Below are positions 4,148 to 52,563 of a stretch of 54,894 bases of DNA, in pieces. Each line of letters starts with the position of its first letter. Position 1 is the first letter of the stretch. The translations under genes were made by a program, and so were the position numbers. Source of the DNA: Lachnospiraceae bacterium. Lineage in GTDB: Bacteria; Bacillota; Clostridia; Lachnospirales; Lachnospiraceae. The notes under the pieces are model-generated. The model had not been told where the DNA came from. It did not search any database and saw nothing but the letters and a program-made list of their open reading frames with translations. Where the stretch lies: the NCBI GenBank assembly GCA_017440045.1, contig JAFSIA010000052.1:1-54894 (forward strand), in the 5' to 3' direction.

Positions 4148-6058
4148 TTATGACATCTTCTGCTTATTATTTTCAGCTATCAAAAACTGTACAAATTCTT
4201 CCTGTGGCAATGGTTTTGAAAAATAGTATCCCTGAATGTAATCAATACCAAGGTCTTTCATTGTTTCATACTGCTCAGGTGTCTCTATACCCTCTGATAC
4301 TATTTCAAGCTTCATACCCTTTATCATACTCATTGCTGCATCCATAACATACTGAGCCTTATCATTTTCAAAATAAGACTTTGTCATATCTCTGTCAAAC
4401 TTAACTATATCTACCGGCATCTCAGCTATATAGTTAAGATTTGACTGACCCGTTCCAAAATCATCAAGTGAGAACTCCACGCCGTAATCAATAAGGTCCT
4501 GCATATTTTTAATAAGCAAATTCTTACCTTCTATTGATGCAGACTCTGTAATTTCCAGATTGATTTTACTTGGGTCGACATTATACTTCTTCATTATTCT
4601 CTTATAGTCTGATGCCAGATGTCTATAACAGCACTGCACAACGGACAAATTAATCTCAACATAGTCCAGTCCTAATTCTTCAAAGGAATCACTGCTTATA
4701 AACTCACATACCTTCTCAAAAATAAGCTCACCCAACTTTATAATCATACCATTCTCTTCAGCAACACCTATAAACTTTGCAGGTGGCACAATAGTTCCCT
4801 CCTCGTCTCGGATACGAACAAGTGCTTCAGCTGATGTGAATCTTTTCTTATCGGTTGAATAAATCGGCTGATAATATATCTCTATTCTGCCGTTTGATAT
4901 AGCGTCCACAATAAGCGCTTCCACAACACTTTCGCTCACCATATCATCAAATATCTTTCTATCGATTGTAACAATTCGTCTTCTTAAATCATCATTATTA
5001 TTCTGTCTTGCATATCTTAATAGCTTCATAAATGAATATACATCATTTGTGAAGCTTCCATCTGGCACATAGAAGTACTCAGCCTTGGCATATATACTAT
5101 ATTCCTTGCCCCACTGCTCGTGTATCTCTGCATCTAGACGTTCTCTACCAGCTTTACCATGCTCATTATCATCAAATACAAGCATAATCTGATCATCCGA
5201 ATCACAAAATCTCATAGTTCCGGGCAGTTTGTTTAAAAATGCCACAAACTCTTCCTGTCTTTTTTTGTCAGCTTCAGACAAGTTACCTTCCTTCAGATCA
5301 GACAAATCTTCAACCACGATAAGATAAACAGAAAATTTCTTATTCTCTGCATACATTGTTTTGATATATTCCTCAAATCCCTTTTGATTAAAGAATCCCG
5401 TTCGTTTATCAATATATGAATCCGGATTTTCCAGCATCAAATATATTACAAATACACCTATGGCGCCTGCATAGCTTACAAGAAGAAGCCACTTAACAAA
5501 GAACTGTACCGCTGCTGCGACCACCCACAGCATAACCCACATAGTCACTGCATTTCTTCGTCTTGTATTCATATTATTCCAATTTTTAAATACAAGGTGA
5601 ATTATTTTCCACATACAATACAAGCATATTGCATATGTAACATAGTTTGCCGGTCCCTCAGAATATACATATCTTCCTTCATGTACCCACTCAATAGGAA
5701 CAATCATTATGATGACTTCAGCAATCATAAAAATACTTCCCTGACGTAGAGCCTTCTTTCTTCTTAATGCAGTTCTTGCATATATATCACAATAGATATA
5801 ATCCAATGTTGAATACGCTGTTGACACCAATGCTACCAAATATAACTTACAAATTATATCTACAAAGGTTTTCGAAAATAGATGACTGTTCGTAATAACA
5901 AAAACAGATAATATGTCAAGCACAATACATACTATCGCAAAAGCAATCATTATAAAAAAAGCCTTACTCGTCTTTAGCTTCAAAGGCTTAGTCGTCAATG
6001 AGAAATATAAAATTACGAACAGAATCAGCAATCCACAGCATTGCGCAATTATGTTCAT
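4148..6058 (-). CDS. Membrane EAL-domain c-di-GMP phosphodiesterase with degenerate GGDEF domain
   Basis: 636 residues. About six membrane helices fill residues 1-210, a GGDEF-fold domain about 215-345, and an EAL domain about 370-630. The cyclase signature is replaced by SDDQI near residue 287, so this half is unlikely to make c-di-GMP. The EAL half keeps its catalytic set: EAL (411-413), Asn470, Glu502/Glu505 in LEITES, Asp532-Asp533 in DDFGTG, Lys553, Glu589 in SEGIET and Gln609 in QGYYFSKPL. It should therefore hydrolyse c-di-GMP to pGpG under control of the membrane region. The ATG at 6058 has AGGTGG upstream. It is preceded by its own promoter and the GH127 terminator. Confidence 0.92.
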   Translation of the reverse strand: MNIIAQCCGLLILFVILYFSLTTKPLKLKTSKAFFIMIAFAIVCIVLDILSVFVITNSHLFSKTFVDIICKLYLVALVSTAYSTLDYIYCDIYARTALRRKKALRQGSIFMIAEVIIMIVPIEWVHEGRYVYSEGPANYVTYAICLYCMWKIIHLVFKNWNNMNTRRRNAVTMWVMLWVVAAAVQFFVKWLLLVSYAGAIGVFVIYLMLENPDSYIDKRTGFFNQKGFEEYIKTMYAENKKFSVYLIVVEDLSDLKEGNLSEADKKRQEEFVAFLNKLPGTMRFCDSDDQIMLVFDDNEHGKAGRERLDAEIHEQWGKEYSIYAKAEYFYVPDGSFTNDVYSFMKLLRYARQNNNDDLRRRIVTIDRKIFDDMVSESVVEALIVDAISNGRIEIYYQPIYSTDKKRFTSAEALVRIRDEEGTIVPPAKFIGVAEENGMIIKLGELIFEKVCEFISSDSFEELGLDYVEINLSVVQCCYRHLASDYKRIMKKYNVDPSKINLEITESASIEGKNLLIKNMQDLIDYGVEFSLDDFGTGQSNLNYIAEMPVDIVKFDRDMTKSYFENDKAQYVMDAAMSMIKGMKLEIVSEGIETPEQYETMKDLGIDYIQGYYFSKPLPQEEFVQFLIAENNKQKMS

Positions 6059-6112
6059 ATTATCACCACCTATCCACAGTTACTAAAAAGCACGAATCTT
6101 TTCATAGTAAAC

Positions 6113-6233: not shown

Positions 6234-9200
6234 TTAGTTAGCTTTCTTGCTCTTCTTTTTCTTTAATACAACAAATGCACCTGCTGCTACAACTACTACT
6301 GCTACAACAATAATAACTATCGTCATTGTGTTACCACCTGGCTCTTCGCCCTTAACAAGAGAAAATGTGTATGTCTTTTCTGTCTCGTGATCCTCTGCAA
6401 CTACCTTTACAGTAACCTTTGTCTCTGCATCTGAAAGTGTGATTACCTGCTCCTTTGTATCATCTACAAGCTTGCCATCAATATAAAGAAGACCATAATC
6501 GTCAGTCAAGTCAAACTTTACGCTTACCTCTTTAAGAGTTTCATCTACATATGCTGTAATCTTATCACCATCAATTTTATCCTTAATACTGTCTCCAGCA
6601 ACTACAATATCATCAAATGATGTATTGCTATTATATGCCTTAACCATCTTTAAAATGTCAAAGATACCACCAGCATAACCTACCTTATCAGCAGCAAACT
6701 TAACTACAACACTTTCCTTACCCTTTGTAAGTTCTTCAGGAATCTCATATCTAGCCTCATAGAAATCAGCCGGATCTGTACCTTCGATTGTTACATCAGC
6801 TAAAAGTGTATCATCTACATAGATGCTGAATGTTCTTCCGGCATCACCACTGTAGTATTTAGCGATAAGGACATTCTTTCCATCTCCATCAACCTTCATT
6901 GTGTACTGGAAGTAGCCACCCTGTGCTGCATCTCTGTACATAAGACCGCCAAATGAGCCTGTTGCAGAGCTCTGTGACTGAAGACTGTGTGAGTTCTCAT
7001 ACTGGTCATTAGATACAGGAATCTCATCAATAATAGAAGCTTCAACTCTATTCTTATCCTTTGAGGAAATAAGTGCGCTGTCAGCAGCTTCACCATCAGC
7101 TGTCACAAGATAGAAATATATACCATATCTGTCTGTGTACTGCTCATAATGAGGTGTAAATACAAGCTCGCTGTCTGTTCCCTCTAATGTAAACTCCATC
7201 TTTCCTTCTGCTTTTACAACATTAGAAGCCACATTAGCAACCCAATCTTCCACTGTACCATCTACTACTGCAATATCTTCGTCAATAGTAATAAGCTTTG
7301 TAGGAACTGTTACGCTTACACCTGTTGTAGAGTTTACCATATCTTCTGTTCCAAGTGATGCACTGAGAACAACCGGACCATACTTAAATGCGATTACGTT
7401 ATCGCTATCTGGTAATGTGTAAGAAACCACTTCAATATCAAATGTTACAACAATTTTATCTCCATCATTCCATGGACCGGCAAGTGAAATAAGACCACCT
7501 GCTACTACCACCTCTGTAGCCTTACCATTCACAGTAACTGTAGGAGTGCCTACTGCCCACTCTGGAACTCTAATCTTAATACCTGCATCAGATGTGCCGC
7601 CATCAAGTGTTTTAACTGTAAGAGTTGTTGTGTTTACATTTGGAATATCTGTATCCTGTGTAAGCTGTATGTTCTTCTCATCCCATGTTACCGATGAGCT
7701 AAAGAACTGCATTACATAAATATCTTTATCATTGTGATAATATAAGCTGTCTCCAAGCTTTGAGAAGCTCTCCATACCTGAACCTGTACAGCACCAGAAG
7801 TTTGTCTCCGGAGTACTGTATACCTTGTAGAAACCAGTTGCCATTGGCTGGAAGTATGTTGTCATACCTGTCTCTGGGTTCTGTGAAGAAAGAATAGCAT
7901 TGATAAATGTTGTCTCATAGAAATCAGCATACTTTGCCTCACCTGTTATCTTATAAAGTTCTCTAGAAAGCTTGAGCATGTTGTATGTATTACATGTCTC
8001 ACAGTTGCAGTTTGTTCTCTCACCGTCAAGTATCTGTGACTTTCCAAAGTGCTCCCACTCACTGTTACCACCTGTAACATATGTGTGGTTATTTATAACT
8101 ATCTGCCAGAAATTCTCAGCTACCTGAAGGTAGTAATCTCTGTCCTCAGAATCTGTCAATGTAATATATCTGTTTAACGCACCAACAATCTTTGGAATTG
8201 TTGTATTTGCGTGTAAACCATCAAGAATATCATCACCATTATAAAGTGACTGGAAAAGCTTCATCTCGTCAAATGAATGAGCTGCCTTAGCATGATTCTC
8301 ATCACCTGTAATGCTATATAACTCATAGAGACAATCGTTCATTCCGCCGTACTCTACTGCCAATACTGTTAACTGTGTAGCCTCAGACCATGTGCTTGTT
8401 CTGCTGTATACCCAGTCACCAAGTCTCTTTGCCACTGTAAATGCATCTTCGTTTCCTGTTACCTTATATACATCAATAATACCTGCAAGTATCTTATGCA
8501 TTGTATACCAAGGAACCCATGTACCGGCTGTATTTCCTGCCTCGATTCTATCATAATGTGCCTCTGGAATGGCAGCTAAGTATCCGCTTTCAGCCTGATA
8601 CTCTAAAAGCTTTTCAGACATATAGTTAAGAATATCTAAAAGCTCGCTGTCACCTGTAGCCTCATAAGCCTGTGCAACAGCTGTAAGATAGTGGCCAAGT
8701 GTGTGACCCTTAATATCTGATGATTCCCAGCCTGCATAAAGCTCAGCATCTAAATCTGCATCTGCAATATCTGCAAAGCCTCTTAAAAGTCTGTCAGCCT
8801 CTAATGATTTCAAGTACTCAATCTCAAGCTTTGTAGCATTTACGAGATAGTCATCTATAAGCTCTATATCTGCCTTTGAGAAATCCTCTAATGTAGTGAA
8901 ATCTGTAATAGCTGGAACAGTAAGCTCAAATGTTTTTGTCTTTTCTTCACCACCAAACTTTAATGTTGCTGTAAGTGTAACTTTTGCATCAGCCTCTCCT
9001 AAAGCCGGTCTTGTAACAACACCTTCGTTAGAAAGAGCTGCTTCGTTTGTAGACGACCATGTAATCTCACTACCTGCTCCACCAACTGTAGGAAGTGCTA
9101 AATCATATTTTACAACAGATACCGGAAGTGTAAGATTTGCATAATCAGCATCAATTACTGATGAAGCATCAAACTCTTTACCATACTCTGTATATAAATC

Positions 9201-9932
9201 AATGACATCAGAAGCACTAGCAACCTGACTATAGATTCTAAAATCATCTAAGTATACCTTTGCAAAACCACCGTTATAGCCTGGTGAGTTGAATCCAATA
9301 TACTTATTACTTTCGCCATCCTGAGAAATGTATGAAGCAACATTTAAGTAAAGAACCTCCTGTGCCACACCATTTCTAAAAATCTGAACTGTCTGTGTCT
9401 CCTTATCGAATGTAACCGCAATATGTACCCATTCTCCATCAGGGAAAAATTCACTTCTAGAACCTGATACATATGCTTCCATTGGCTGTCCTGTAGACTC
9501 ACCAATAGAAATCTTTAATGGTGTACTATCATCAAGGCTTGATAAATACCAGCCTTTTCCCTGATATCTTCCACTTGGCTTAAACCATGTAAGCATGTTC
9601 TCGCCTGCCATTTTGCCGTCAGCCTTAACCCACATAGAAACTGTAAGGTTTTCTGGCTGCAAGTCAGTGGACTTACCTAAATCAATGTAAGATGAGCCAT
9701 CAAGATAAACTGCCTGACCACTTACACCTTCAACGTATGTCAAATCCTTATTTCCAGTTCCCGAATAACCATTACCGGAAGCATCATCCAAGTTATTATC
9801 AAACTTCAAATCCACAACTAACGAATCGTCGATTTCTGCTGCATGAACATTTGCTGCCGGATTAACCACAACCATACCACTTGTAGCAAGAGCTACTGCA
9901 GTAAACAATGCTGCAATCTTCTTAAGTCTCAT
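6234..9932 (-). CDS. Secreted, membrane-anchored GH127 beta-L-arabinofuranosidase, multidomain
   Basis: 1232 residues from the ATG at 9932. That start has GGAGGG 5 nt upstream and begins a signal peptide (residues 1-32, VHAAE). An in-frame upstream ATG at 10079 would bury the signal peptide and is rejected. Domain order: LamG/concanavalin-like (about 38-250), bacterial Ig-like (about 262-340), GH127 catalytic region (about 345-900), beta-sandwich domains, a C-terminal membrane helix (about 1200-1222) and a KKKKSKK tail. GH127 zinc and catalytic residues are present: Glu645 and Cys647 in ETCNTYN and Cys714-Cys715 in FWCCTGSG, matching Glu338, Cys340, Cys417 and Cys418 of the Bifidobacterium enzyme HypBA1. 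It should release beta-L-arabinofuranose at the cell surface. No LPXTG motif is present. Confidence 0.9.
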   Translation of the reverse strand: MRLKKIAALFTAVALATSGMVVVNPAANVHAAEIDDSLVVDLKFDNNLDDASGNGYSGTGNKDLTYVEGVSGQAVYLDGSSYIDLGKSTDLQPENLTVSMWVKADGKMAGENMLTWFKPSGRYQGKGWYLSSLDDSTPLKISIGESTGQPMEAYVSGSRSEFFPDGEWVHIAVTFDKETQTVQIFRNGVAQEVLYLNVASYISQDGESNKYIGFNSPGYNGGFAKVYLDDFRIYSQVASASDVIDLYTEYGKEFDASSVIDADYANLTLPVSVVKYDLALPTVGGAGSEITWSSTNEAALSNEGVVTRPALGEADAKVTLTATLKFGGEEKTKTFELTVPAITDFTTLEDFSKADIELIDDYLVNATKLEIEYLKSLEADRLLRGFADIADADLDAELYAGWESSDIKGHTLGHYLTAVAQAYEATGDSELLDILNYMSEKLLEYQAESGYLAAIPEAHYDRIEAGNTAGTWVPWYTMHKILAGIIDVYKVTGNEDAFTVAKRLGDWVYSRTSTWSEATQLTVLAVEYGGMNDCLYELYSITGDENHAKAAHSFDEMKLFQSLYNGDDILDGLHANTTIPKIVGALNRYITLTDSEDRDYYLQVAENFWQIVINNHTYVTGGNSEWEHFGKSQILDGERTNCNCETCNTYNMLKLSRELYKITGEAKYADFYETTFINAILSSQNPETGMTTYFQPMATGFYKVYSTPETNFWCCTGSGMESFSKLGDSLYYHNDKDIYVMQFFSSSVTWDEKNIQLTQDTDIPNVNTTTLTVKTLDGGTSDAGIKIRVPEWAVGTPTVTVNGKATEVVVAGGLISLAGPWNDGDKIVVTFDIEVVSYTLPDSDNVIAFKYGPVVLSASLGTEDMVNSTTGVSVTVPTKLITIDEDIAVVDGTVEDWVANVASNVVKAEGKMEFTLEGTDSELVFTPHYEQYTDRYGIYFYLVTADGEAADSALISSKDKNRVEASIIDEIPVSNDQYENSHSLQSQSSATGSFGGLMYRDAAQGGYFQYTMKVDGDGKNVLIAKYYSGDAGRTFSIYVDDTLLADVTIEGTDPADFYEARYEIPEELTKGKESVVVKFAADKVGYAGGIFDILKMVKAYNSNTSFDDIVVAGDSIKDKIDGDKITAYVDETLKEVSVKFDLTDDYGLLYIDGKLVDDTKEQVITLSDAETKVTVKVVAEDHETEKTYTFSLVKGEEPGGNTMTIVIIVVAVVVVAAGAFVVLKKKKSKKAN

Positions 9933-9954
9933 AAATCCCTCCAAAAAAGTGTTA

Positions 9955-10005
9955 ATTTTAACGTACCAATTGGTTAATAGTATACTTATGAGCATATTGT
10001 AACAA
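9955..10005 (-). promoter_or_regulatory. GH127 promoter with AraR-like operator
   Basis: Minus-strand TTGTTA (10000-10005) and TATACT (9979-9984) are 15 nt apart, a short spacer. Just downstream, at the expected start site, 9955-9970 reads ATTTTAACGTACCAAT. This matches 13 of 16 positions of the Bacillus subtilis AraR operator consensus ATTTGTACGTACAAAT. A perfect 10-bp palindrome ACCAATTGGT (9965-9974) overlaps it. The location suits an arabinose-relieved repressor. The protein that binds is inference. Confidence 0.5.
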
Positions 10006-10061
10006 TTTCTTAATATGTGGTAAATATTCAAAACAACACACAAGGTGTGAAAAAGTACGAT

Positions 10062-10095
10062 AAAAAAGGAAAGAGGCAAAACCTCTTTCCTTTTT
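10062..10095 (-). terminator. Strong terminator of the chemoreceptor gene
   Basis: Perfect 14-bp stem (10063-10076 with 10082-10095) with a 5-nt loop. On the minus strand it ends in CCTTTTTT. It lies 13 nt after the MCP stop codon and insulates the GH127 promoter. Confidence 0.85.
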
Positions 10096-10107
10096 GCATT
10101 ATATATA

Positions 10108-11811
10108 CTAGTTAATTTTAAACACTTTTATACTCTCTTCAAGGTTATCTGCAATTTTACGTAAGTGAGCCGCATTTTCGCCCATCTCCTGAATAGTTGC
10201 ATTAACCTCTGTAGCTGAAGCTGATGTCTGCTCTGTAGAAGCTGCATTCTCCTCTGCTATAGCTGAGAGATTCTGAACAAGGTCTATAACCACAGCTCTT
10301 GATTCATCAAGCTTCTGCGCTATCTCAGCGATTGTCTTAATCTCATCTCTTGAAACGGAAATTCCATGGATAACATCCTTAACAGCCTGACCGGTCTTAC
10401 CAACCATATCACTCTGTTGACCCATAATTTCCTTAACCTCCTCCATGATTTCAACTTCCTTCTGAGAATCATTAATAAGAGCGGTTACAATAGCCTCAAT
10501 CTGTCTTGCAGAATTATTTGACTGCTCAGCCAGCTTCTGAATCTGGTCTGCAACAACTGCAAAACCTCTACCCTGCTCACCGGCCCTAGCCGCCTCAATA
10601 CTAGCATTAAGCGAAAGAAGATTTGTCTCTTCTGCAATTGAACTGATAATATTAACAGCCTCACTAATCTGCTTAACCGATTCATTTGTTATATTTGTCT
10701 GGTTGTAAATAACTTCAATAGACTCTTTACACTTATCATTAACATTTTGAAGCTCATTTAAGATTTCTGTAGCTACACCACCCTGAGCCTCCATACTGTC
10801 AGCATTATCATTAAGTCTCGCCACATTATCTGTTGTCTCCTCTATCAAATCGCCCATCATAAGAACATTTTCTGTAGCCTTCTGAGTATCATTTGCCTGT
10901 GCACCTGCACCGTCAGCCATCTCGTTAACAGCTCTCTCAACCTGTTCTACAGCAATAGTTGTTTCTGCAGTAGCATCACCTAACATATTTGAACACTCAT
11001 TAACTTCTGAGCTCTTCTCAAAAATGTTTCCTACAACTGTAGTAAGCTTGTCCTTAAGGTTTATAATTGCCCTTATGATATCGCCTGTTTCATCTTTTGA
11101 CTTAGACACCTTTTCATCAATCTGTACTGTAAGGTCTCCATCTGCCACACTTCCAAGTGTATTAACTGCATATTTAATACGCTTTGTTATCTTTGATGCT
11201 ACGAATAATATTACACCAAAAGCAGCAAAGCAACATACAATCGCTATAATAAACATACCAGATACGATAGATGTAACTGAAGAATCTACATCCTCACGTT
11301 CCATAGCTGAACAAACCATTCCAACCGGTTCTTGTACTCCCATATTGTAAATTGGAACAAAATATGCAAAATACTCTACATCATTAATCACTACACTTTC
11401 AGAGAAATATTCTTCACCAGCCAATACTGTCTCTGCAATAGCAGCATCCATCTGCTCCTTTAACAATCTGTTTCCATCGGCATCTTTCATAGTTGTCATA
11501 TAACATGTGTCACCGTAGTAAACCGAATTATGTATATCACTTGCTTCTAAAATCTTGTCAACATTCTCAACTGTTTCAGTAATATTTATGGCTGCTCTGT
11601 TCCACATAATTCCGTCTTCGTTTACCGAATAATAATCTCCCTGAGACAGCATAATACTCGCCTTTTCACTAATAGCCATCGCCTGCAAATCAGCCCTAAT
11701 TAAGCTTCTCATAGAATCCCCAAAAGAAATCGCTGATGTAATACAAATTAAAATTGCTGTAAAAAACAATGGAAAAAGTGATAAGTGAACCATTTTTGTA
11801 CGTATTTTCAT
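10108..11811 (-). CDS. Methyl-accepting chemotaxis protein with extracellular single-Cache-like sensor
   Basis: 567 residues. TM1 at about 10-32, an extracellular ligand domain of about 150 residues ending in FAYFVPIYNMGVQEPVGMV (single-Cache style), TM2 about 184-207, HAMP about 208-262, then a long coiled coil. The tip carries the invariant signalling hairpin EETNLLSLNASIEAARAGEQGRGFAVVA (given in part), which binds CheA/CheW. It should report an extracellular solute to the flagellar motor. The ligand is unknown. The ATG at 11811 has AAGGAGG upstream. It has its own promoter and a 110-nt structured leader, so it is transcribed separately from the histidine kinase behind it. Confidence 0.93.
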   Translation of the reverse strand: MKIRTKMVHLSLFPLFFTAILICITSAISFGDSMRSLIRADLQAMAISEKASIMLSQGDYYSVNEDGIMWNRAAINITETVENVDKILEASDIHNSVYYGDTCYMTTMKDADGNRLLKEQMDAAIAETVLAGEEYFSESVVINDVEYFAYFVPIYNMGVQEPVGMVCSAMEREDVDSSVTSIVSGMFIIAIVCCFAAFGVILFVASKITKRIKYAVNTLGSVADGDLTVQIDEKVSKSKDETGDIIRAIINLKDKLTTVVGNIFEKSSEVNECSNMLGDATAETTIAVEQVERAVNEMADGAGAQANDTQKATENVLMMGDLIEETTDNVARLNDNADSMEAQGGVATEILNELQNVNDKCKESIEVIYNQTNITNESVKQISEAVNIISSIAEETNLLSLNASIEAARAGEQGRGFAVVADQIQKLAEQSNNSARQIEAIVTALINDSQKEVEIMEEVKEIMGQQSDMVGKTGQAVKDVIHGISVSRDEIKTIAEIAQKLDESRAVVIDLVQNLSAIAEENAASTEQTSASATEVNATIQEMGENAAHLRKIADNLEESIKVFKIN

Positions 11812-14194: not shown

Positions 14195-15985
14195 CTACTC
14201 ACTAAGAGGTCTTAAATCTATAAACAGTTCGTCAAGCTGCTTTTCATCAACCACATTAGGCGCATCCGTCATCATACATGATGCATCCTTTATCTTAGGG
14301 AATGCTATAACTTCTCTGATACTATCTTCCTTTGCCATAAGCATAATCAGACGGTCAAGTCCATAGGCGAGACCGGCATGTGGTGGAACTCCGTACTTAA
14401 ATGCATTTAAGAGGAAACCAAATCTCTCATAAGCCTCTTCCTTTGTAAATCCTAAGACTTCAAACATCTTTTCCTGAACATCACTCTGGTAAATTCTAAC
14501 AGAACCACCACCGATTTCTGTTCCATTTAAAACTATGTCATATGCCTTTGCCCTAACTCTGCCCGGATCGCTGTCAAGATACTGTAAATCCTCGTCCATA
14601 GGCATTGTAAAAGGATGATGCATAGCAACAAATCTATTTTGTTCCTCATTCCACTCGAGAAGTGGGAACTCTGTAATCCACAAGAAGTTAAACTGATTCT
14701 TATCTAAAAGTCCTAATTCCTCAGCAATATGAAGGCGAAGAGCTCCAAGAACCGCCCATACTACACTATTCTTATCTGCCGCAAAGAGAAGTAAATCTCC
14801 CGGTTTTCCTCCCATCGCATTAACAAGAGATGCTAACTCATCCTCTGTCATAAACTTAGAGAATGATGACTTATATGTTCCATCCTCATTTATGGCAAGG
14901 TAAGCAAGACCCTTTGCCCCATATGTCTTTGCCACCTCTACCAACGCATCTATCTTCTTTCTAGGCATTGCACCCTGACCTTCTGCGTTGATACCACGAA
15001 CAGAACCACCATTTTCAATAGCTCCGGTGAATACTCCAAAGCCACATCCCTTAACTACATCTGTTACATCCTTAAGCTCCATACCAAATCTTGTATCTGG
15101 CTTGTCCGAACCAAATCTGTCCATAGCCTCCTGCCATGTCATTCTCTCAATTGGAAGCTTTATATCTACATTAAGAATCTCCTTGAACATCTTGGCAAGA
15201 AGTCGCTCATTTACATCAATGACATCATCTACATCCACAAATGACAATTCCATATCTATCTGAGTGAATTCCGGCTGTCTGTCTGCTCTTAAATCTTCGT
15301 CTCTAAAGCACTTTACTATCTGGAAATATCTGTCATATCCGGAACACATAAGCAGCTGCTTAAACAGCTGTGGAGACTGTGGTAATGCATAGAAATTGCC
15401 CGGATGTACACGGCTAGGTACAAGATAATCCCTCGCTCCCTCCGGTGTGCTCTTTGTAAGCATTGGTGTCTCTATTTCCAAAAATCCCTCACTGTCAAGA
15501 AATGTTCTGACTAATGTAGCTGTCTTGCTTCTCATAATGAGATTTTTCTGTAGTTCAGGACGACGAAGGTCTAAATATCTATACTTAAGTCTCAAATCGT
15601 CTTTTGTTGTTATGCCATCCTCAATTGGAAATGGTGGTGTCAATGCCTCTGACAATATACGAAGCTCTGTAGCACGTATTTCTATGTCACCTGTCTTAAG
15701 GTTCTCATTTATGGCTCCACCGCGCTTTGTCACCTGTCCCTTTACTGCTATAACAAACTCTGAACGGAGTGTCTCGGCCTTTTCAAAGCCCTCCTTTAAC
15801 ACATCATTCTCATCGAATACTATCTGAAGCAAACCTGAACGGTCTCTCAAATCTATAAATATAAGACTTCCTAAGTTTCTTCTTTTCTGTACCCATCCCA
15901 TAACAGTGACTGTCTCACCTATATTTTTATTGGATACCTCTGTACATCTGTGGCTTCTCTTAAGCCCTCTCATTGATTCTGCCAT
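14195..15985 (-). CDS. aspS: Aspartyl-tRNA synthetase, bacterial type
   Basis: Charges tRNA-Asp. 596 residues with an N-terminal OB-fold anticodon-binding domain (GWVQKRRNLGSLIFIDLRDR), a class II core with motif 2 (FRDEDLRADRQPEFTQID), the bacterial GAD insertion (about 290-430), and motif 3 (GLAYGLDRLIMLM). Its start codon overlaps the hisS stop by one base (TAATG), implying translational coupling. AAGGAAG in the hisS tail serves as ribosome site. Whether it also aspartylates tRNA-Asn cannot be judged without knowing whether gatCAB is present. Confidence 0.97.
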   Translation of the reverse strand: MAESMRGLKRSHRCTEVSNKNIGETVTVMGWVQKRRNLGSLIFIDLRDRSGLLQIVFDENDVLKEGFEKAETLRSEFVIAVKGQVTKRGGAINENLKTGDIEIRATELRILSEALTPPFPIEDGITTKDDLRLKYRYLDLRRPELQKNLIMRSKTATLVRTFLDSEGFLEIETPMLTKSTPEGARDYLVPSRVHPGNFYALPQSPQLFKQLLMCSGYDRYFQIVKCFRDEDLRADRQPEFTQIDMELSFVDVDDVIDVNERLLAKMFKEILNVDIKLPIERMTWQEAMDRFGSDKPDTRFGMELKDVTDVVKGCGFGVFTGAIENGGSVRGINAEGQGAMPRKKIDALVEVAKTYGAKGLAYLAINEDGTYKSSFSKFMTEDELASLVNAMGGKPGDLLLFAADKNSVVWAVLGALRLHIAEELGLLDKNQFNFLWITEFPLLEWNEEQNRFVAMHHPFTMPMDEDLQYLDSDPGRVRAKAYDIVLNGTEIGGGSVRIYQSDVQEKMFEVLGFTKEEAYERFGFLLNAFKYGVPPHAGLAYGLDRLIMLMAKEDSIREVIAFPKIKDASCMMTDAPNVVDEKQLDELFIDLRPLSE

Positions 15986-17256
15986 TAGTTTGCGCTTCCT
16001 TTCAATGCTTCCTTATAAAACTCTTCGAATTCCTCGTATCCCTCAGCTGTCAGCTGCTCCTTCTGGAATTTCTTATTCTTATTCATACGTGCAACTAAAA
16101 CCTGTGTACCATCTGCTCTTGTTGCCTGAGCCTTTGCGATGATTTCACAAAGCTTCTCTCCTGATACACCCTTCTCAATGAGATAAGCAACCTTCTTACT
16201 CTCATTTGGAATCTTAAATCCATTCTCCATCATAAGTAGAATGATTCTTTCAAATCCAATTGAAAAACCGCAGGCTGGAACTTCCTGACCTGTAAACTTT
16301 CCTACCATCTTGTCATATCTTCCGCCACCACCGCAGCTTGCACCAAGCTCCGGCATAACAATCTCAAAAATTGTACCTGTATAATATGACATACCTCTTA
16401 CAAGTGTAGGGTCAAATATTATCTCAAAATCTGCATTCTTTGTTGCTTTTACACTGTCAATTATCTCGCTTAAGCCAGCCTCTACCTCAGGCTCCATAAA
16501 GTCCTTTATCTGGTCTGCTAAGAACTTAAGTGCATTATCAGCACTTTCCATTCCCTTAAAAAGACTCATATACTTATCTACAAAAGAGCCTTCAAAACCG
16601 CTTTCCTTAAGCTCTCTCTCCACACCTTCCATGCCAATCTTGTCCATCTTGTCAAGGATGATGAATACTGTATCAAAATCCTCCTCATTAAATCCGCTAT
16701 ATGCAGCCATAGCCTTGAGAATTCTTCTGTCATTAATATTAATGCGGAAATTTTTAAATCCAAGCTTTCCGATAGTAGTTGTCGTGGCTAAGATAAGCTC
16801 TATTTCAGCCAAATTGCTTGGCTCACCTAAGATATCAATATCGCACTGCATAAACTGACGATATCTGCCTCGCTGTGGTCTGTCCGCTCTCCATACATTA
16901 CCCATCTGCAATGACTTAAAAGGATTTGGTAAGTTTGCAGAGTTATTTGAATAAAATCTAACAAGTGGAACTGTCAAGTCGTAACGCATACCAAAATCAA
17001 CAAGGTCCGCCTCACTGCCTGCAGTCTCAAGATTCAACTTCTCGCCTCTCTTTAACACCTTAAAGATGAGCTTCTCATTTTCTCCACCCTGCTTACTGCT
17101 GAGATTCTCAATGTGCTCCATACATGGTGTTTCAATTGATGAGAAACCAAATTTTGCATATGTCTCCTTTATAACACTTATAGCGTAATCTCTTATTTTC
17201 ATCTCTGCCGGCATAATCTCTTTCATGCCATTTACAGGCTTCTTTGTTAACTTCAT
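15985..17256 (-). CDS. hisS: Histidyl-tRNA synthetase
   Basis: Class II synthetase, 423 residues. It has the motif 1 region near GMKEIMPAEM, motif 2 (VWRADRPQRGRYRQFMQCDIDI), the HisA-box GMSYYTGTIFE with GGGGRYDKM, motif 3 (ACGFSIGFERI) and a C-terminal anticodon-binding domain. It follows the HemZ fusion gene by 9 nt and overlaps aspS by one base. No T-box leader fits in the 9-nt gap, so expression comes from the upstream operon promoter. ATG at 17256 has AGGAGG. Confidence 0.97.
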   Translation of the reverse strand: MKLTKKPVNGMKEIMPAEMKIRDYAISVIKETYAKFGFSSIETPCMEHIENLSSKQGGENEKLIFKVLKRGEKLNLETAGSEADLVDFGMRYDLTVPLVRFYSNNSANLPNPFKSLQMGNVWRADRPQRGRYRQFMQCDIDILGEPSNLAEIELILATTTTIGKLGFKNFRININDRRILKAMAAYSGFNEEDFDTVFIILDKMDKIGMEGVERELKESGFEGSFVDKYMSLFKGMESADNALKFLADQIKDFMEPEVEAGLSEIIDSVKATKNADFEIIFDPTLVRGMSYYTGTIFEIVMPELGASCGGGGRYDKMVGKFTGQEVPACGFSIGFERIILLMMENGFKIPNESKKVAYLIEKGVSGEKLCEIIAKAQATRADGTQVLVARMNKNKKFQKEQLTAEGYEEFEEFYKEALKGSAN

Positions 17257-17265
17257 ATCTTCCTC

Positions 17266-19407
17266 CTACTTGTCTGAACCTACAGACACTTTCTTTATAT
17301 CTTTATCTAAATCAATCTCGTGGACAACCTTTAAGAATGCTAAAAATACCTTCATATCGAAGTTTTTAACCTCATCAATCATCAGCGTCACTGCCGAATC
17401 CTTGTCAAAGGCTTTTCTATATGGTCTGTCTGAGGTAAGCGCTATAAACACGTCACACACACGAAGTATTCTGGCTCCAAGCGGTATGCTCTCTCCAGCC
17501 AGATTGTCAGGATATCCTGAACCATCATAGTTTTCATGATGGTAAAGTATACTCTCTATAACGAAATCAGAATAATCCTTTTTCTTTAAAATATCTGCGC
17601 TAAGCTTAGAGTGCATACGCACATATCTTAACTGCTCCACAACGAAGCTCTCTTCATCCCTGCCATACATATAATTTGACAAACGAAGCTTACCGATATC
17701 ATGTAATACTCCTGCTACCGAAAGCTCATATATCATCTTTTCCGGCAATCCAAGCTCTCTGCCAATAAGCCCGGCTAGATTACTTACATATATTCCATGT
17801 TCAATGGCATCCGGCACATCTTTTTTAAGCGCCTGTCTCACAATATATGAGTCACTTCTCAATCTCTTTCCCTGAGCCTTGCTAAAAACCTTGTCAAAAA
17901 AGTCAGCCTTTCTCTCTATCATCTCATCGATTCTTTCAATGTATTGGTCAACATTTTTAACACTGTCTACTCTCTCTATCTGTTCACCATCCGGATAAAC
18001 AAACTTTGTAACTGAGCCTGCACCCAGAGCAACTATAGTCTGCTTTTCCTCCATAATGAGAATGTTGTAAATACCTGCCTTGCCATCTCTGGCATATCCA
18101 ACATTTTCCATATTCCCTGCAATATTCTTCTGTCTGTACAGATAATATGGTGTCATTCCCATCTTAGCTGCATATTCTGCTGTAAGCTTCATTATCTCCT
18201 GATTGTTCTCAATTGATAATTCCTTATACTCATCCTTAAACATATTAAGTCTCGCTGCTCTCTTTATGGCTAACGAGTGGACTGTTATGCTGTCCGGATT
18301 AAGCTTTAGCGTCTCCTCCATAGTGTATCTCACATCATCGATACCCTCATTTGGGAGACCTACAATAAAGTCCATATTTATATTGTCAAAGCCCTCTTCC
18401 CTAGCCATAGCAAAGGCTTCCTTAATCTGCTCTACTGAATGTTTTCTACCTATAATATCCAAGGTCTCCTGCTTCATAGTCTGAGGGTTTATGGAAATCC
18501 TTGTTACACCATTCTTTTTCAATGTTTTAAGCTTATCTCTTGTGATACTGTCAGGTCTGCCTGCTTCTACAGTAAACTCCTGAACGTATGTAAAATCAAA
18601 TGAAGCTTTCACCTTTGTGATAAGTCTGTCAAGCTGTTCTGCACTAAGTGTTGTCGGTGTGCCTCCTCCAAAATACACAGTGTTAAGCTTTTTATCTTCA
18701 AATCTTTTAGATACATACTCTATCTCTTTGATAACGCTGTCTATGTACATATCAACTTTATTTTTATATGCATCAATATTGTATGATGTAAATGAACAAT
18801 AAAGACATGTGCTAGGACAAAACGGTATGCCTATATACAAGCTGTATCCGTCCTTATAATCAATATCCTTTAATATCTTAATCTCTCTTTTAGCTATGTC
18901 TGTACTGAGACTAATCTTTTCGTCAGAAACGTAATATGTGTCTCTCATATATTTATGTACTGCATCATCAGAAAGAGGTTTTTTCTTCTCTAAAAGGGCC
19001 ATTGGTATTTTTGTAGGTCTAATACCCGTAAGAGTTCCCCATGGCAGTTCTCTGCCTGTCATCTCCTTCATAACCTTATACACCAGACGCTTTGCCGCAT
19101 TCTTTGTAGATTTCCTGTCTAAAAAATCTGCCTCTCCATGATGACTTACAAGCTTTTTCATCTTAGCCTGACAGTCCTCCATGTCCACACATTTGCTGTC
19201 ATCACCAGCTAAAAGGCCATAAAGATCCACACAAATCTTCGATGAAACCTCGTCAAAAACCACACTAAGCATGTTCTTAATGCTGTCATTTTCTGCAAGC
19301 TTCTCTGTAGAATTTGTGTAAACCTCTGTCCCCGGGCAAAACTCCCTGACCAAAGTCCATATATCATATTCAAAATCAGTTCTCTTTAAATCAATTAATA
19401 TTGCCAC
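17266..19407 (-). CDS. hemZ: HemZ-type radical SAM coproporphyrinogen dehydrogenase fused to an HD-GYP domain
   Basis: One uninterrupted frame. The N-terminal part, about 500 residues, is HemZ-like: its own N-terminal region, GTLTGIRPTK, the radical SAM motif CPSTCLYC, YFGGGTPTTL and the HemN-like C-terminal part. The last 200 residues form an HD-GYP domain with H-D in VLHDIGK, HHENYDGSGYP and RILRVCDVFIALTSDRPYR, all metal ligands present. HemZ members usually end near the junction (coordinate about 17900). The HD-GYP part may cleave c-di-GMP or another cyclic dinucleotide (inference). I chose GTG at 19407: GAGG lies 8 nt upstream over the stop of the preceding gene. An in-frame ATG at 19440 would add 11 residues. 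The substrate of the HemZ half is not proven. Confidence 0.88.
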   Translation of the reverse strand: MAILIDLKRTDFEYDIWTLVREFCPGTEVYTNSTEKLAENDSIKNMLSVVFDEVSSKICVDLYGLLAGDDSKCVDMEDCQAKMKKLVSHHGEADFLDRKSTKNAAKRLVYKVMKEMTGRELPWGTLTGIRPTKIPMALLEKKKPLSDDAVHKYMRDTYYVSDEKISLSTDIAKREIKILKDIDYKDGYSLYIGIPFCPSTCLYCSFTSYNIDAYKNKVDMYIDSVIKEIEYVSKRFEDKKLNTVYFGGGTPTTLSAEQLDRLITKVKASFDFTYVQEFTVEAGRPDSITRDKLKTLKKNGVTRISINPQTMKQETLDIIGRKHSVEQIKEAFAMAREEGFDNINMDFIVGLPNEGIDDVRYTMEETLKLNPDSITVHSLAIKRAARLNMFKDEYKELSIENNQEIMKLTAEYAAKMGMTPYYLYRQKNIAGNMENVGYARDGKAGIYNILIMEEKQTIVALGAGSVTKFVYPDGEQIERVDSVKNVDQYIERIDEMIERKADFFDKVFSKAQGKRLRSDSYIVRQALKKDVPDAIEHGIYVSNLAGLIGRELGLPEKMIYELSVAGVLHDIGKLRLSNYMYGRDEESFVVEQLRYVRMHSKLSADILKKKDYSDFVIESILYHHENYDGSGYPDNLAGESIPLGARILRVCDVFIALTSDRPYRKAFDKDSAVTLMIDEVKNFDMKVFLAFLKVVHEIDLDKDIKKVSVGSDK

Positions 19408-19411
19408 AATA

Positions 19412-20044
19412 CTATCCTCGATACCATTTCTTTTCATCATCTATAGTTGTCATCATGCCATGTCCAGCAAAAACCTCTATATCCCCATCAAGAACAAGCA
19501 GCTTATCTATGATAGAATCAAAGATTTTCCGCTCACTTCCTGTAGGCAAATCCGTCCTTCCATGGCTCTGATAAAACAATGTATCTCCACTAAAAAGTCT
19601 ATCCTTTTCCTCGTCACTGACAAGATAGCAACAACTTCCTTCTGTGTGTCCCGGTGTGTGTATCACCTTTATTTTAAAACCACACAAATCAAAGGTCTGA
19701 CCATCCTTAAGTGCTATATCTACTGACACACTGTCTGCAAATCCAAATATGGCTGATGCATTTAACATACCATCCTTAGCTAAACCGACCTCTGCCTCAT
19801 GGGAATATACATTAACACCATAAAGTTCCTTTAGCTCTGTAGCTGCTCCTATATGGTCAAAATGTCCATGTGTCAAAAGAATTGCCTTAATAGTAATCCC
19901 CAATTCCTTAACAGCTGCATCTATAGCTTTAGGATTATCTGCCGGGTCTATAATAAATCCTTCTTTTGTAAGCTTATTATAAAGAATGTAGCAATTTGTA
20001 CCACATATGCTAAGTATAAGCGTCTTCATAGACATAATCGCCAT
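19412..20044 (-). CDS. Metallo-beta-lactamase-fold hydrolase (glyoxalase II-like, YqgX type)
   Basis: 210 residues with the metal-binding motif THGHFDHIG, the downstream His in HTPGHTEGS, Asp in FSGDTLF and the C-terminal GHG. This is the single-domain hydroxyacylglutathione hydrolase-like family, common beside relA and hisS in Firmicutes. The natural thioester substrate is unknown. It follows relA by 28 nt, and its stop codon lies inside the ribosome-binding region of the HemZ fusion gene, indicating tight coupling. The start may be any of three nearby ATGs (20044, 20035, 20029); 20044 is best placed relative to GAAAGG. Confidence 0.88.
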   Translation of the reverse strand: MAIMSMKTLILSICGTNCYILYNKLTKEGFIIDPADNPKAIDAAVKELGITIKAILLTHGHFDHIGAATELKELYGVNVYSHEAEVGLAKDGMLNASAIFGFADSVSVDIALKDGQTFDLCGFKIKVIHTPGHTEGSCCYLVSDEEKDRLFSGDTLFYQSHGRTDLPTGSERKIFDSIIDKLLVLDGDIEVFAGHGMMTTIDDEKKWYRG

Positions 20045-20072: not shown

Positions 20073-22343
20073 CTAGTTTGTAGAACGTACAATATCAATA
20101 ATAGAATCAACCATACGCAACTTATCAATAAGCTTTGTAAGCTCCTCTTTACCTGCAACCATAAATGACATTGATATAGTTGCAACCCCCTGCTTACTTG
20201 TACGGCTGTTGATACTCTGTACATCTATATTTCTCTCAGTGAAAATCTTTGAAATATCTGCAAGCAGTCCGGTTCTGTTTTTACTGAATATCTGAATCTC
20301 TGCCAGATATTTCTCGCCATCTTTTCTGTCAATCTGCCAATCAGCCTCCATAAGACGGACTCTCTCGCTCTCCGGAAGATACATAATATTGACACAATCT
20401 GTACGATGTATTGATATTCCTCTACCTCTGGTGATAAAGCCTACTATCTCATCTCCAGGCACAGGATTACAGCACTTTGAATATCTTACAGACACATCAT
20501 GAACACCCTTTACGATAATGCCACCCTTAGATTTTTGAACATCTTTCTTAACCTTTGAATTTTCAGCAATCTCTTCAAGAATCTGCTCATTTGTAAGTGT
20601 CTTTTTATTCTTCTTCTCATATTCATCAATAAGGCGGTTTACCACCTGACCTTCCTTGATGCTTCCATGACCAATAGCAGCCAGAATAGCATTCCACTCT
20701 TTTAAATTAAATTTATTTAATACCTTAACAACATATTCATGCTTTGTAAGCTCACTTATATTTACACCCTTTGCCTTGCAATAACGCTCAATAAGTTCCT
20801 TACCCTTTATGATATTGTCTTCCTTATACTCAGACTTAAACCACTGATTAATCTTGTTTTTAGCCTGAGAACTCTTAACAATATTAAGCCAGTCCCTGCT
20901 TGGTCCCTTTGAGTTTTGAGAGGTAATAATCTCTATTCGGTCACCGTTTTGAATTTTATAATCAATGTTCACTATCTTTCCATTAATTCGTGCCCCTACC
21001 ATCTTGTTACCTACAGCACTGTGAATGCTGTAAGCAAAATCGATTGGAGTTGAACCACTTGGAAGATTCTTCACATCACCTGATGGTGTGAAGCAATATA
21101 CATCATCTGTAAACAGGTTGAAATCACTCTTAATAACACTGAGGAATTCCTTATTATCTGACAGGTTACTCTGCCACTCAAGAATTTCTCTAAGCCAGCT
21201 AATCTTCTCTTCCTCTTTATCCGGAGTATACTTTCCATTTGGGTCTTCCTTGTACTTCCAGTGAGCTGCGATACCGTTTTCTGCAGTTTTATGCATCTCC
21301 TCTGTACGTATCTGAATCTCAAACGGCTGACCATTTGGTCCGATTAGCGTTGTATGCAATGACTGGTACATGTTTGATTTAGGCATTGCAATATAATCTT
21401 TAAATCTGCCCTGAATAGGCTTGTAATTCTCATGGATAATACCTAATGCAGCATAGCAATCCTTAACAGAATCCACGATAATTCTTACTGCAAACAAGTC
21501 TAAAATCTGGTCAAATTCCTTGCTTTGGTTAATCATCTTTTTGTATATGCTAAAGATATGCTTCATTCTTCCATATACTCTAGACTTAATTTTCGCCTCT
21601 TTCATGAGACCATCAACCTCTGCCACCAGGTCCTTTATCATCTTCTCACCAGAGCTTAACTTAACATTTCTCTGATATGAAATCTCATTAAACTTTTCCG
21701 GTTCTAAGTACTTTAAGGATAAATCATCAAGTTCAACCTTAATCTTAGATATACCTAATCTGTCTGCTATAGGCGCATATATATCCATAGTCTCTCTTGA
21801 TTTTTCAATCTGCTTAGCCGGACTCTGGTATTCCATAGTTCTCATATTATGAAGTCTGTCGGCAAGCTTAATGAGGATAACTCTGATATCTTTACCCATG
21901 GCAAGAAACATCTTTCTTAAGTTTTCTGCCTGAATCTCTATTTTATCTGCCTGATAAGACACCTGGGTCAACTTTGTAACACCATCAACCAGCAATGCCA
22001 CCTCAGCTCCAAACATAGCTGTAAGCTCTTCTAGTGTAAGCACTGTATCTTCCACTACATCATGCAAAATACCTGCCACAATAGTCTCTTTATCCATCTC
22101 AAACTCAGCCAGGATAATTGCTACAGAAAGAGGATGTATAATATAAGGCTCTCCTGAGCGACGTTTCTGCTCCTTATGAGCCTCAGCCGCAATTTTATAA
22201 GCCTTCTCGATTGTCGAAATATCATCTGATGGATGGTACTTCTTTATAATCGAAATAAGCCTCTCATACAATTCGGTAGGATTATCATATTCCTCCGGCG
22301 ATTTAATTTTCGGAACTAATATTTCAATTTTCTCATCTGCCAT
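20073..22343 (-). CDS. relA: Bifunctional (p)ppGpp synthetase/hydrolase
   Basis: Rel-type stringent response enzyme of 756 residues. The HD hydrolase domain is intact (GILHDVVEDT). The synthetase domain has VYGRMKHIFSIYKKM, the YQSLHTT loop and EIQIRTEEMH. TGS (VYCFTPSGDVKNLP), a zinc-finger/helical region with RYSKCCNPVPGD and a C-terminal ACT domain follow. It makes and degrades (p)ppGpp in response to uncharged tRNA. The ATG at 22343 has GAGG 8 nt upstream; a longer start 7 codons earlier lacks a site. It lies 37 nt after apt. Confidence 0.96.
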   Translation of the reverse strand: MADEKIEILVPKIKSPEEYDNPTELYERLISIIKKYHPSDDISTIEKAYKIAAEAHKEQKRRSGEPYIIHPLSVAIILAEFEMDKETIVAGILHDVVEDTVLTLEELTAMFGAEVALLVDGVTKLTQVSYQADKIEIQAENLRKMFLAMGKDIRVILIKLADRLHNMRTMEYQSPAKQIEKSRETMDIYAPIADRLGISKIKVELDDLSLKYLEPEKFNEISYQRNVKLSSGEKMIKDLVAEVDGLMKEAKIKSRVYGRMKHIFSIYKKMINQSKEFDQILDLFAVRIIVDSVKDCYAALGIIHENYKPIQGRFKDYIAMPKSNMYQSLHTTLIGPNGQPFEIQIRTEEMHKTAENGIAAHWKYKEDPNGKYTPDKEEEKISWLREILEWQSNLSDNKEFLSVIKSDFNLFTDDVYCFTPSGDVKNLPSGSTPIDFAYSIHSAVGNKMVGARINGKIVNIDYKIQNGDRIEIITSQNSKGPSRDWLNIVKSSQAKNKINQWFKSEYKEDNIIKGKELIERYCKAKGVNISELTKHEYVVKVLNKFNLKEWNAILAAIGHGSIKEGQVVNRLIDEYEKKNKKTLTNEQILEEIAENSKVKKDVQKSKGGIIVKGVHDVSVRYSKCCNPVPGDEIVGFITRGRGISIHRTDCVNIMYLPESERVRLMEADWQIDRKDGEKYLAEIQIFSKNRTGLLADISKIFTERNIDVQSINSRTSKQGVATISMSFMVAGKEELTKLIDKLRMVDSIIDIVRSTN

Positions 22344-22380
22344 ATGTATCGCCTCGTTTCGCAAAAATTAGTGTATATAA

Positions 22381-50873: not shown

Positions 50874-52517
50874 TCATCCTTCGTTTACTTTCATAGCAAT
50901 CTTATTCTTGTACATAAGCTTATCTGCTCTGCCTCTTGTATCCTTTAAATCATCATCTAAATTCGAATCATATGTGGCATATCCATATGCAATACTCATA
51001 TTTATCAACGGATGCTCTACATTATACTCTGCCACCATCTCATCCATACCACTGCAGCATATCTCTATGACATCTTCTGTCACATTCTTTGCAATTACAC
51101 AAAACTCATCGCCACCTATACGATAACAATGTCCTATACTCTCAAAAGATTCTCTGATAATCCTTGCACTGTTTAATATATATTCATCGCCAAAATTATG
51201 ACCATAAGAGTCATTACACTTTTTGAGATTATTTAAATCAAACATAAAGATTGTATATTTATCCTCGCCTATTTTTATGGCCTTCATATCATTATTGCAT
51301 GCTGTTCTGTTATACACGCCTGTAAGCTCATCCCTATATGCCAGATTTTCAAACTTCTGCGCCTGCTTACCCTTTCTCATAAGTCTCTGTGTCTCTTTCA
51401 TACTATAGTAACACAGAGATGTTATATGGATAAGTATCGCCAGCTTAGTCCACTGATAATTCTTTCCATTTACTGGATCAAGATAAAAATAAATTAGGTC
51501 AATAATTACACCAATAGCAGTTAGCGCACCACATATCATATTTATCCTGCTTATGTATGTAAGCTTATGCCAACCTACTGTGATAAAGTTCAAAACTACA
51601 AGTGTGCACAATACAATAACAGAAATTATCATTGAAACATGAGTAAGCCATAACGAATTTTTCATATCCATAGTTCCTGTTATCTGCAATACGGCTGATA
51701 TCACCTGAACAGTGATTATAAATATGCATAACCAGTCACATACCTTATTATATCTATTTGAGAGAATCTTTTTCTCAAATAATATAAGAGGTAACGCAAT
51801 AGAGCCCAACAAAATATATGATATGTATGTAAATATAGTACCTACATCTATAATCATATTTACTACCGGCATATTTATAACAAACCAAATTGACAATAAT
51901 ACTGCAAATATACCCAAATATATTAAGTCGTACTTGTTTGCCTTATTCTTTGTAACAATCCAGCTATATATAATTATGATAAAGCCCACTACAAATATAA
52001 ACACAGTAAGTAAAAATGAGACTATATCATTCATAAACTCATCTCGCACTATGTTAAGTCTATCACCTAAATAAAAGCTTGGAACATAGTCCACATATGA
52101 TTCATATTCTGTTTCCACTACAACAGTAATCTCATGAAACTCGTGCTCTTTAGGCACAAAAAGACAGTTCCATGCATCTCCGGAAACTGTGTCAAAAAAT
52201 GTATCTGACTTGTCCATAATTAAACCGTACATAAGGTCTTCACCACAGTACACATGAACGTCTGCATGATATGTATAAAACATCAGATAATCTCCACCGA
52301 CACCAATTTCACCCAAGGTGTTAGTATATGTGATTACATAGTTTCCATCCTCATTTCTAGCTTCACTTTTCTCTATTTTCCAATCCTTTATCTCTTCATA
52401 TTTAAACTCTTTGGTATTTCTACTTCTGTCGTTTTCTACCAATGAAGCATTCCAAAGAATAATAGTTAAGATAACAAACAAAACCGCTAACCAAACAAGC
52501 GCAATCTTCCTGCTCAT
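50874..52517 (-). CDS. Membrane diguanylate cyclase with 7TM sensor
   Basis: 547 residues from the ATG at 52517 (AGAGGG upstream). TM1 (about 8-25), an extracellular beta-rich domain to about 165, then seven TM helices (about 170-375), the 7TMR-DISM type layout, and a GGDEF domain (about 395-547) with intact YRIGGDEFCV, DLNNLKKCND and GHNFGDEYI. It should make c-di-GMP from two GTP. The RxxD product-inhibition site expected five residues before GGDEF is absent (ESIG), so feedback is probably lost. First gene of the run that ends in sbcDC. Confidence 0.9.
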   Translation of the reverse strand: MSRKIALVWLAVLFVILTIILWNASLVENDRSRNTKEFKYEEIKDWKIEKSEARNEDGNYVITYTNTLGEIGVGGDYLMFYTYHADVHVYCGEDLMYGLIMDKSDTFFDTVSGDAWNCLFVPKEHEFHEITVVVETEYESYVDYVPSFYLGDRLNIVRDEFMNDIVSFLLTVFIFVVGFIIIIYSWIVTKNKANKYDLIYLGIFAVLLSIWFVINMPVVNMIIDVGTIFTYISYILLGSIALPLILFEKKILSNRYNKVCDWLCIFIITVQVISAVLQITGTMDMKNSLWLTHVSMIISVIVLCTLVVLNFITVGWHKLTYISRINMICGALTAIGVIIDLIYFYLDPVNGKNYQWTKLAILIHITSLCYYSMKETQRLMRKGKQAQKFENLAYRDELTGVYNRTACNNDMKAIKIGEDKYTIFMFDLNNLKKCNDSYGHNFGDEYILNSARIIRESFESIGHCYRIGGDEFCVIAKNVTEDVIEICCSGMDEMVAEYNVEHPLINMSIAYGYATYDSNLDDDLKDTRGRADKLMYKNKIAMKVNEG

Positions 52518-52563
52518 ACAAATACCCTCTTTATAATACACGTTTTACCCAACTGTATCTTAC

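Follow-up and report, generated by a model that had tools for sequence, protein, structure and literature searches.

A HemZ-family radical SAM protein fused to an HD-GYP domain in a Lachnospiraceae genome, a variant of a wider hemZ and HD-GYP gene pair

The window, by which we mean the whole analysed stretch of 54,894 nucleotides from a Lachnospiraceae bacterium, carries on its minus strand a gene in which a HemZ half and an HD-GYP half share a single reading frame. The longest open frame spans positions 17266 to 19440, starts with ATG at 19440 and encodes 724 aa, and an in-frame GTG at 19407 would give a product of 713 aa. The GTG is probably the true start of the gene, since a Shine-Dalgarno-like GAGGA, found by sequence inspection at 19415..19419 (minus strand), lies 7 nt ahead of it, and since the stop-to-stop frames of two congeners, L009 and L011, open at residue 12 of the window protein. 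The initial annotation had paired 724 residues with positions 17266 to 19407; the frame is present, but 724 aa fit the ATG at 19440 while 19407 fits the 713-aa product. The fusion gene has an MBL-fold hydrolase gene as its upstream neighbour (19412..20044) and hisS as its downstream neighbour (15985..17256), which is followed by aspS (14195..15985, a name assigned without a family search), and a relA/spoT homologue (20073..22364) belongs to the same locus, all on the minus strand. Also on this strand, at 6234-10127, lies a gene for a GH127 beta-L-arabinofuranosidase-like protein of 1297 aa, which includes lectin-like and Ig-like domains. The genome of the window (G000) is a 1.9 Mb draft, 74% complete.

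The HemZ core lies at 17902..19104 (minus strand, residues 113-513), where the HemZ profile TIGR03994 matched with 624.6 bits (cut-off 321.4) over model positions 1-399 of 401. HemZ had been expected to end near position 17900, and the match stops at 17902. The radical SAM CxxxCxxC motif, which binds a [4Fe-4S] cluster, is present as CPSTCLYC (18796..18819, minus strand, residues 208-215), and its three cysteines, Cys 208, 212 and 215, occur in 178 of 178 HemZ rows. The window protein thus has the full core and the cysteines in common with TIGR03994 HemZ, from which it differs by the additional C-terminal HD-GYP domain. E. coli HemN (1olt) is 25% identical to it over the aligned part, and that match ends at residue 511, ahead of the HD-GYP domain. 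The window protein has Phe217, as do all 178 HemZ rows, where HemN has Cys71, an important residue of that enzyme. Several HemZ frames in other genomes are longer (L118, 703 aa; L192, 617 aa; L244, 633 aa; L235, 636 aa), with about 100-170 extra residues before the core. This extra part showed no match to the window's MBL, relA, hisS, aspS or HD queries, and in L235 it is an insert, because a HemZ-like start is kept there.

TIGR03994 bears the family name coproporphyrinogen dehydrogenase HemZ, and the initial annotation had accordingly proposed a link to tetrapyrrole chemistry. Our family sample comprised 200 genomes, one per genus except for the window's own genus with two. A HemZ-like match (E 1e-45 or better) was found in 194 of them, including a few weak ones, such as G096 (2.5e-49) and G122 (1.6e-52), which may be HemW or partial. 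HemB was found in only 64 of the 200 (G156 among them, with a weak and partial match), and a search of the two genomes of the window's genus in this sample (G000 and G001) found HemB in neither. A tetrapyrrole role of HemZ here is therefore doubtful, and the link lacks support in the form proposed. Given the rarity of HemB and the Phe217 at the place of HemN Cys71, we take coproporphyrinogen III dehydrogenase as a family label for a putative activity, one that is doubtful in the 136 of 200 genomes in which no HemB was found.

The two halves are joined by a linker of residues 514-534 (17839..17901, minus strand), which was modelled at lower confidence as part of one long helix (residues 504-562). 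In L123 and L027 the fused protein has an acidic, repeat-like linker of some 65 residues. The HD-GYP domain of the window protein (17347..17838, minus strand, residues 535-698) was matched by PF13487 (HD_5) with 117.5 bits. With both profile matches in one frame, the description of a HemZ half running into an intact HD-GYP half was borne out, as was that of a full metal-ligand set: H548, H580, D581, H610, H634, H635 and D663 are all present. The HD pair lies at 17698..17703 (residues 580-581) and the HHENYDGSGYP stretch at 17509..17541 (residues 634-644), both on the minus strand. Among 112 distinct sequences of HD-GYPs fused to HemZ or encoded beside it, hereafter called linked, H580, D581, H610, H634 and H635 occur in 112/112 and H548, D663 and K584 in 111/112 each; in the GYP stretch, G642 and P644 are found in all 112 and Y643 in 107. 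By its fold the window's domain is an HD-GYP.

Eight genomes of the window's genus, its own included, were available for judging whether the fusion is real. Five carry the fused frame, and the other three have hemZ followed by a separate HD-GYP gene in unchanged order. In these split congeners the ATG of the HD-GYP gene lies 19-20 nt ahead of the end of the hemZ stop, with additional TTG codons further up in L014. Compared with four fused congeners, both halves of the window's gene look constrained: pN/pS was 0.13-0.26 in the HemZ core and 0.085-0.20 in the HD part, against 0.51-0.74 in the linker. The two separate genes at this place in three of the eight genomes would suit an assembly error or frameshift that joins neighbours, but such an artefact is highly improbable and was rejected, as the fused frame is common to five of the eight genomes, fusions occur in five other genera and both halves look constrained. 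A stop or frameshift near 17900 that separates two genes is contradicted by the same five genomes. The HemZ-HD-GYP fusion is real. Release of a free HD-GYP from a second ribosome start was also considered for the window's gene and rejected, as a scan of residues 476-551 with lax motifs revealed no start codon preceded by a ribosome-like site. The same scan of the other nine fused genes found one near-junction start with a ribosome-like site each in L010, L106 and L172.

The fusion is one form of a more common arrangement. Among 143 Lachnospiraceae genera whose HemZ locus was read, 6 had the fused gene (the window's own genus, L099, L105, L106, L123 and L172), 52 had a separate HD-GYP gene directly downstream of hemZ, 83 had none and 2 were cut off, so that adjacency or fusion was seen in 58 of the 141 genera with a known state. 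A second locus from the window's genus, L013, is split. An HD-GYP was counted as just downstream when the start of the HD match lay less than 600 nt after or less than 400 nt before the hemZ end, and as absent when at least 700 nt of downstream sequence held no HD match; up to 16 candidates per genome were scored with PF13487. The loci read, from 142 other genera and the window's own, were taken from the best matches listed, and since the rest mostly carry more distant HemZ and some loci near contig ends were left out, the HD-GYP share may be overstated. Open-frame length is unsafe as a sign of fusion (G081, reported with 721 aa, is split). For the HemZ of G214 and G218, the open-frame lengths reported were 976 and 938 aa, a measure of imperfect reliability. 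When 55 split loci were inspected with lax motifs, 35 showed a start with a ribosome-like site, of which 14 overlapped the hemZ stop and 25 lay within 30 nt of it. A search across the class found HemZ in 119 of 148 genomes; among these, no HD-GYP was found beside hemZ in 25 loci outside the family or in 4 more inside it. The fused gene is thus one variant of a broader pairing of hemZ with an HD-GYP, in which two adjacent genes are the commoner form. The link between HemZ and HD-GYP, which had been put forward as new, is not peculiar to this genome, although we found no report of HemZ paired with an HD-GYP or HD domain in the open-access literature.

Mapping the one-chain forms on a HemZ tree, a check suggested in the initial annotation, did not place them in one clade. 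Five changes of the fused label are required both on a 178-row tree, where starred branches force 4 of them, and on a 53-row tree inferred under a better model, where 3 are forced. A single clade of all fused forms was rejected (p-AU 2.7e-5, 53 rows), and the five fused congeners as one clade were compatible with the data (p-AU 0.58). Since fused rows number 10 and split rows 55, repeated fusion accounts for the pattern more simply than one old fusion followed by several splits, to which the parsimony counts, being without direction, would apply equally. The presence or absence of a linked HD-GYP needs 13 changes on the 178-row tree, and together with the 83 of 143 genera that lack an HD-GYP beside hemZ this indicates that HemZ often does without it. 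Linked HD-GYPs were found in 30 of 56 HemB-positive and 28 of 85 HemB-negative genomes (HemB list of 63 genomes, the weak partial G156 left out); the p value of 0.023 lacks a tree correction, and we did not build on a tie between HD-GYP and HemB.

The gene order around the fusion was examined in the same manner. The order relA, MBL, hemZ, HD-GYP, hisS, aspS was present in 43 of 80 loci and the same order minus the HD-GYP in 6 of 80, with parts of it in the rest; outside the family, where short flanks were available, parts of the relA-MBL-hemZ-hisS-aspS order were seen. The initial annotation had read the locus as an operon with (p)ppGpp metabolism. The MBL, relA/spoT and hisS neighbours are indeed there, but their order is found with and without the HD-GYP and partly outside the family too, so that the nearness of relA is uninformative on the HD-GYP and a special tie between the two was rejected. 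Downstream of the fusion in L027 and L123, the gene at the place of hisS shares only about 26% identity with its counterpart in the window and encodes a different HisS-type protein, and aspS of L027 is 82% identical to that of the window. Such a stable order would also allow that the HD-GYP came to sit in a housekeeping operon by historical chance and that the two halves work apart, overlapping genes being fused occasionally through stop loss or a frameshift. The short gene overlaps, which ease fusion, the fast-evolving linker and the many hemZ loci without an HD-GYP agree with a bystander of this kind. We nevertheless consider it unlikely, because fused forms occur in separate lineages, a single HD-GYP clade was found beside hemZ, and the linked HD-GYP is maintained in genomes that no longer have other HD-GYPs, as described below.

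That single clade was recovered when 67 linked HD-GYPs were compared with 48 other HD-GYPs of the family, of which 40 were chosen from the best-scoring rows, 5 came from the window's genome and 3 from genomes without GGDEF, two of the 48 being long-branched. The two sets fell on opposite sides of one branch (SH-aLRT 99). They differ at residue 637, within the HHENYDGSGYP stretch, where Asn is the signature of the linked clade (67/67, and 111/112 in the larger linked set) and Arg or Lys stands in 45 of the 48 others. The linked clade also has R608 where others have Lys (41/48), C662 in place of Ala (41/48) and L668 in place of Met (38/48). PmGH (4mcw) reads HHER and V-cGAP3 (5z7c) HHEK where the linked clade reads HHEN, with Arg and Lys, respectively, at the place of residue 637, a position that may touch the substrate. 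Two further observations count against a role as a catalytic partner of HemZ. At the place of PmGH E185, where the window protein has Asp544, the 112 linked sequences have Glu in 40, Asp in 31 and other residues in 41, making the third-metal ligand variable in this clade. In L187 (genome G190), the linked HD-GYP has lost its R-x-Y-R stretch, with metal ligands kept.

Hydrolysis of c-di-GMP is the activity usually assigned to HD-GYP domains. Structural comparison of the window protein, which covered mainly residues 189-522 and 541-707, placed PmGH, DvhD and V-cGAP3 among the nearest solved relatives of the HD-GYP half, and the HD domain of the c-di-AMP phosphodiesterase PgpH (4s1c) gave a lower Z to the window's domain than HD-GYPs did. 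PgpH is described as a membrane protein in PMC12072042. The host, moreover, has c-di-GMP genes close by, as the window itself holds an EAL-domain protein (643 aa, 4148-6079) and a GGDEF-domain protein (556 aa, 50874-52544), both on the minus strand, and its genome has 11 GGDEF and 7 EAL matches. The fusion could accordingly be an ordinary c-di-GMP or cGAMP phosphodiesterase that is tuned by the HemZ half, for instance through the latter's redox or haem state or its iron-sulphur cluster. Its solved relatives, its conserved ligands and GYP stretch and the c-di-GMP genes of its genome agree with this, as does the statement in PMC8177086 that regulatory, sensory or catalytic domains can be joined to HD-GYPs. 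We regard such a tuned enzyme as rather unlikely, though less so than a bystander. The Asn at residue 637 sets the clade apart from most other HD-GYPs of the family, from PmGH and from V-cGAP3, and the distribution of GGDEF and EAL domains speaks against it as well.

GGDEF was found in 172 of the 200 family genomes; of the 28 without it, 20 were listed and 8 deduced from their absence among the listed matches. In the 20 GGDEF-zero genomes whose HemZ locus was read, all 5 HD_5 domains were HemZ-linked; for 121 genomes with GGDEF the corresponding count was 53 of 693 (Fisher 3e-6, kinship ignored). Eight GGDEF-zero genomes without a HemZ locus examined (G012, G037, G078, G116, G124, G152, G161 and G172) comprised five without HD_5, one (G078) with a match under the cut-off, and two (G152 and G172) with one each over it, not near HemZ in the available flank. 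Adding these two unlinked domains leaves 5 of 7 linked in GGDEF-zero genomes (p 6e-5, kinship ignored), and they indicate that HD-GYPs can outlive GGDEF in other ways. An independent-pairs test had too few informative pairs. The presence of a linked HD-GYP is itself rarer without GGDEF (5/20 against 53/121), which counts against a special retention but is not significant (p 0.14). The five GGDEF-zero genomes with a linked domain, two with the fused gene (G143 and G137) and three with split genes (G149, G025 and G190), fall at five separate places on the HemZ tree.

Two Blautia genomes extend this pattern. In Blautia glucerasea, with no GGDEF match, and Candidatus Blautia stercoravium, with one under the cut-off, the sole HD_5 is the HemZ-linked one, and other named Blautia genomes have GGDEF (Blautia parvula, for example, with 42 matches, and Blautia hansenii with 8). 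A search for EAL in these two genomes and the five above found it absent, an absence that, like that of GGDEF, rests on draft genomes that can miss genes (G025 is 78% complete); the metal ligands are kept in all seven. Under a tuned c-di-GMP or cGAMP phosphodiesterase, these cases would have to be recent relics or reflect missed cyclases. Against a close relative, Blautia glucerasea gave a pN/pS of 0.042 for the HD gene and 0.099 for HemZ, values unlike those of a relic. Against L085, which is more distantly related, pN/pS was about 0.46 for both genes with pS near saturation, which counts against the HD-GYP as a maintained partner. The persistence of the linked clade in some genomes that have neither GGDEF nor EAL, a feature that distinguishes it from PmGH, V-cGAP3, DvhD (9rbz) and PA4781 (4r8z), makes c-di-GMP doubtful as its main substrate. 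The cyclic dinucleotide breakdown suggested at the outset is thus weakened by these genomes, although the 11 GGDEF matches in the window's genome leave room for it.

Weighing these readings, we consider an HD-GYP that serves HemZ on something other than c-di-GMP most likely, followed by a phosphodiesterase tuned by HemZ and then by a bystander. In the preferred reading, a HemZ-family radical SAM enzyme would have its own dedicated metal phosphohydrolase of the HD-GYP type, usually as the product of a neighbouring gene that often overlaps hemZ or lies a few bases from it, and as one chain here and in other lineages. The HD-GYP would hydrolyse a phosphodiester or phosphate ester, not mainly the c-di-GMP made by GGDEF proteins, and may act on something else because it is kept where no recognisable makers of the usual signal remain. 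It would work with HemZ either within one pathway or through control of one domain by the other, exerted via the helix that they share. We give about an even chance to this reading, an active phosphohydrolase that acts together with HemZ on something other than the c-di-GMP of GGDEF proteins. We hold more tentatively the more specific proposal that the linked HD-GYPs are a subfamily kept after the loss of GGDEF and EAL, their new substrate being a nucleotide or phosphoester that HemZ's own pathway makes or uses.

With its intact catalytic residues and its tie to one radical SAM enzyme, the linked clade provides a direct test case for other HD-GYP substrates, and the pair offers a handle on the role of HemZ in gut clostridia, in many of which no HemB was found. 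If the clade does have a new substrate, clostridial HemZ, often orphaned from haem synthesis, would gain a partner that may reveal its real job.
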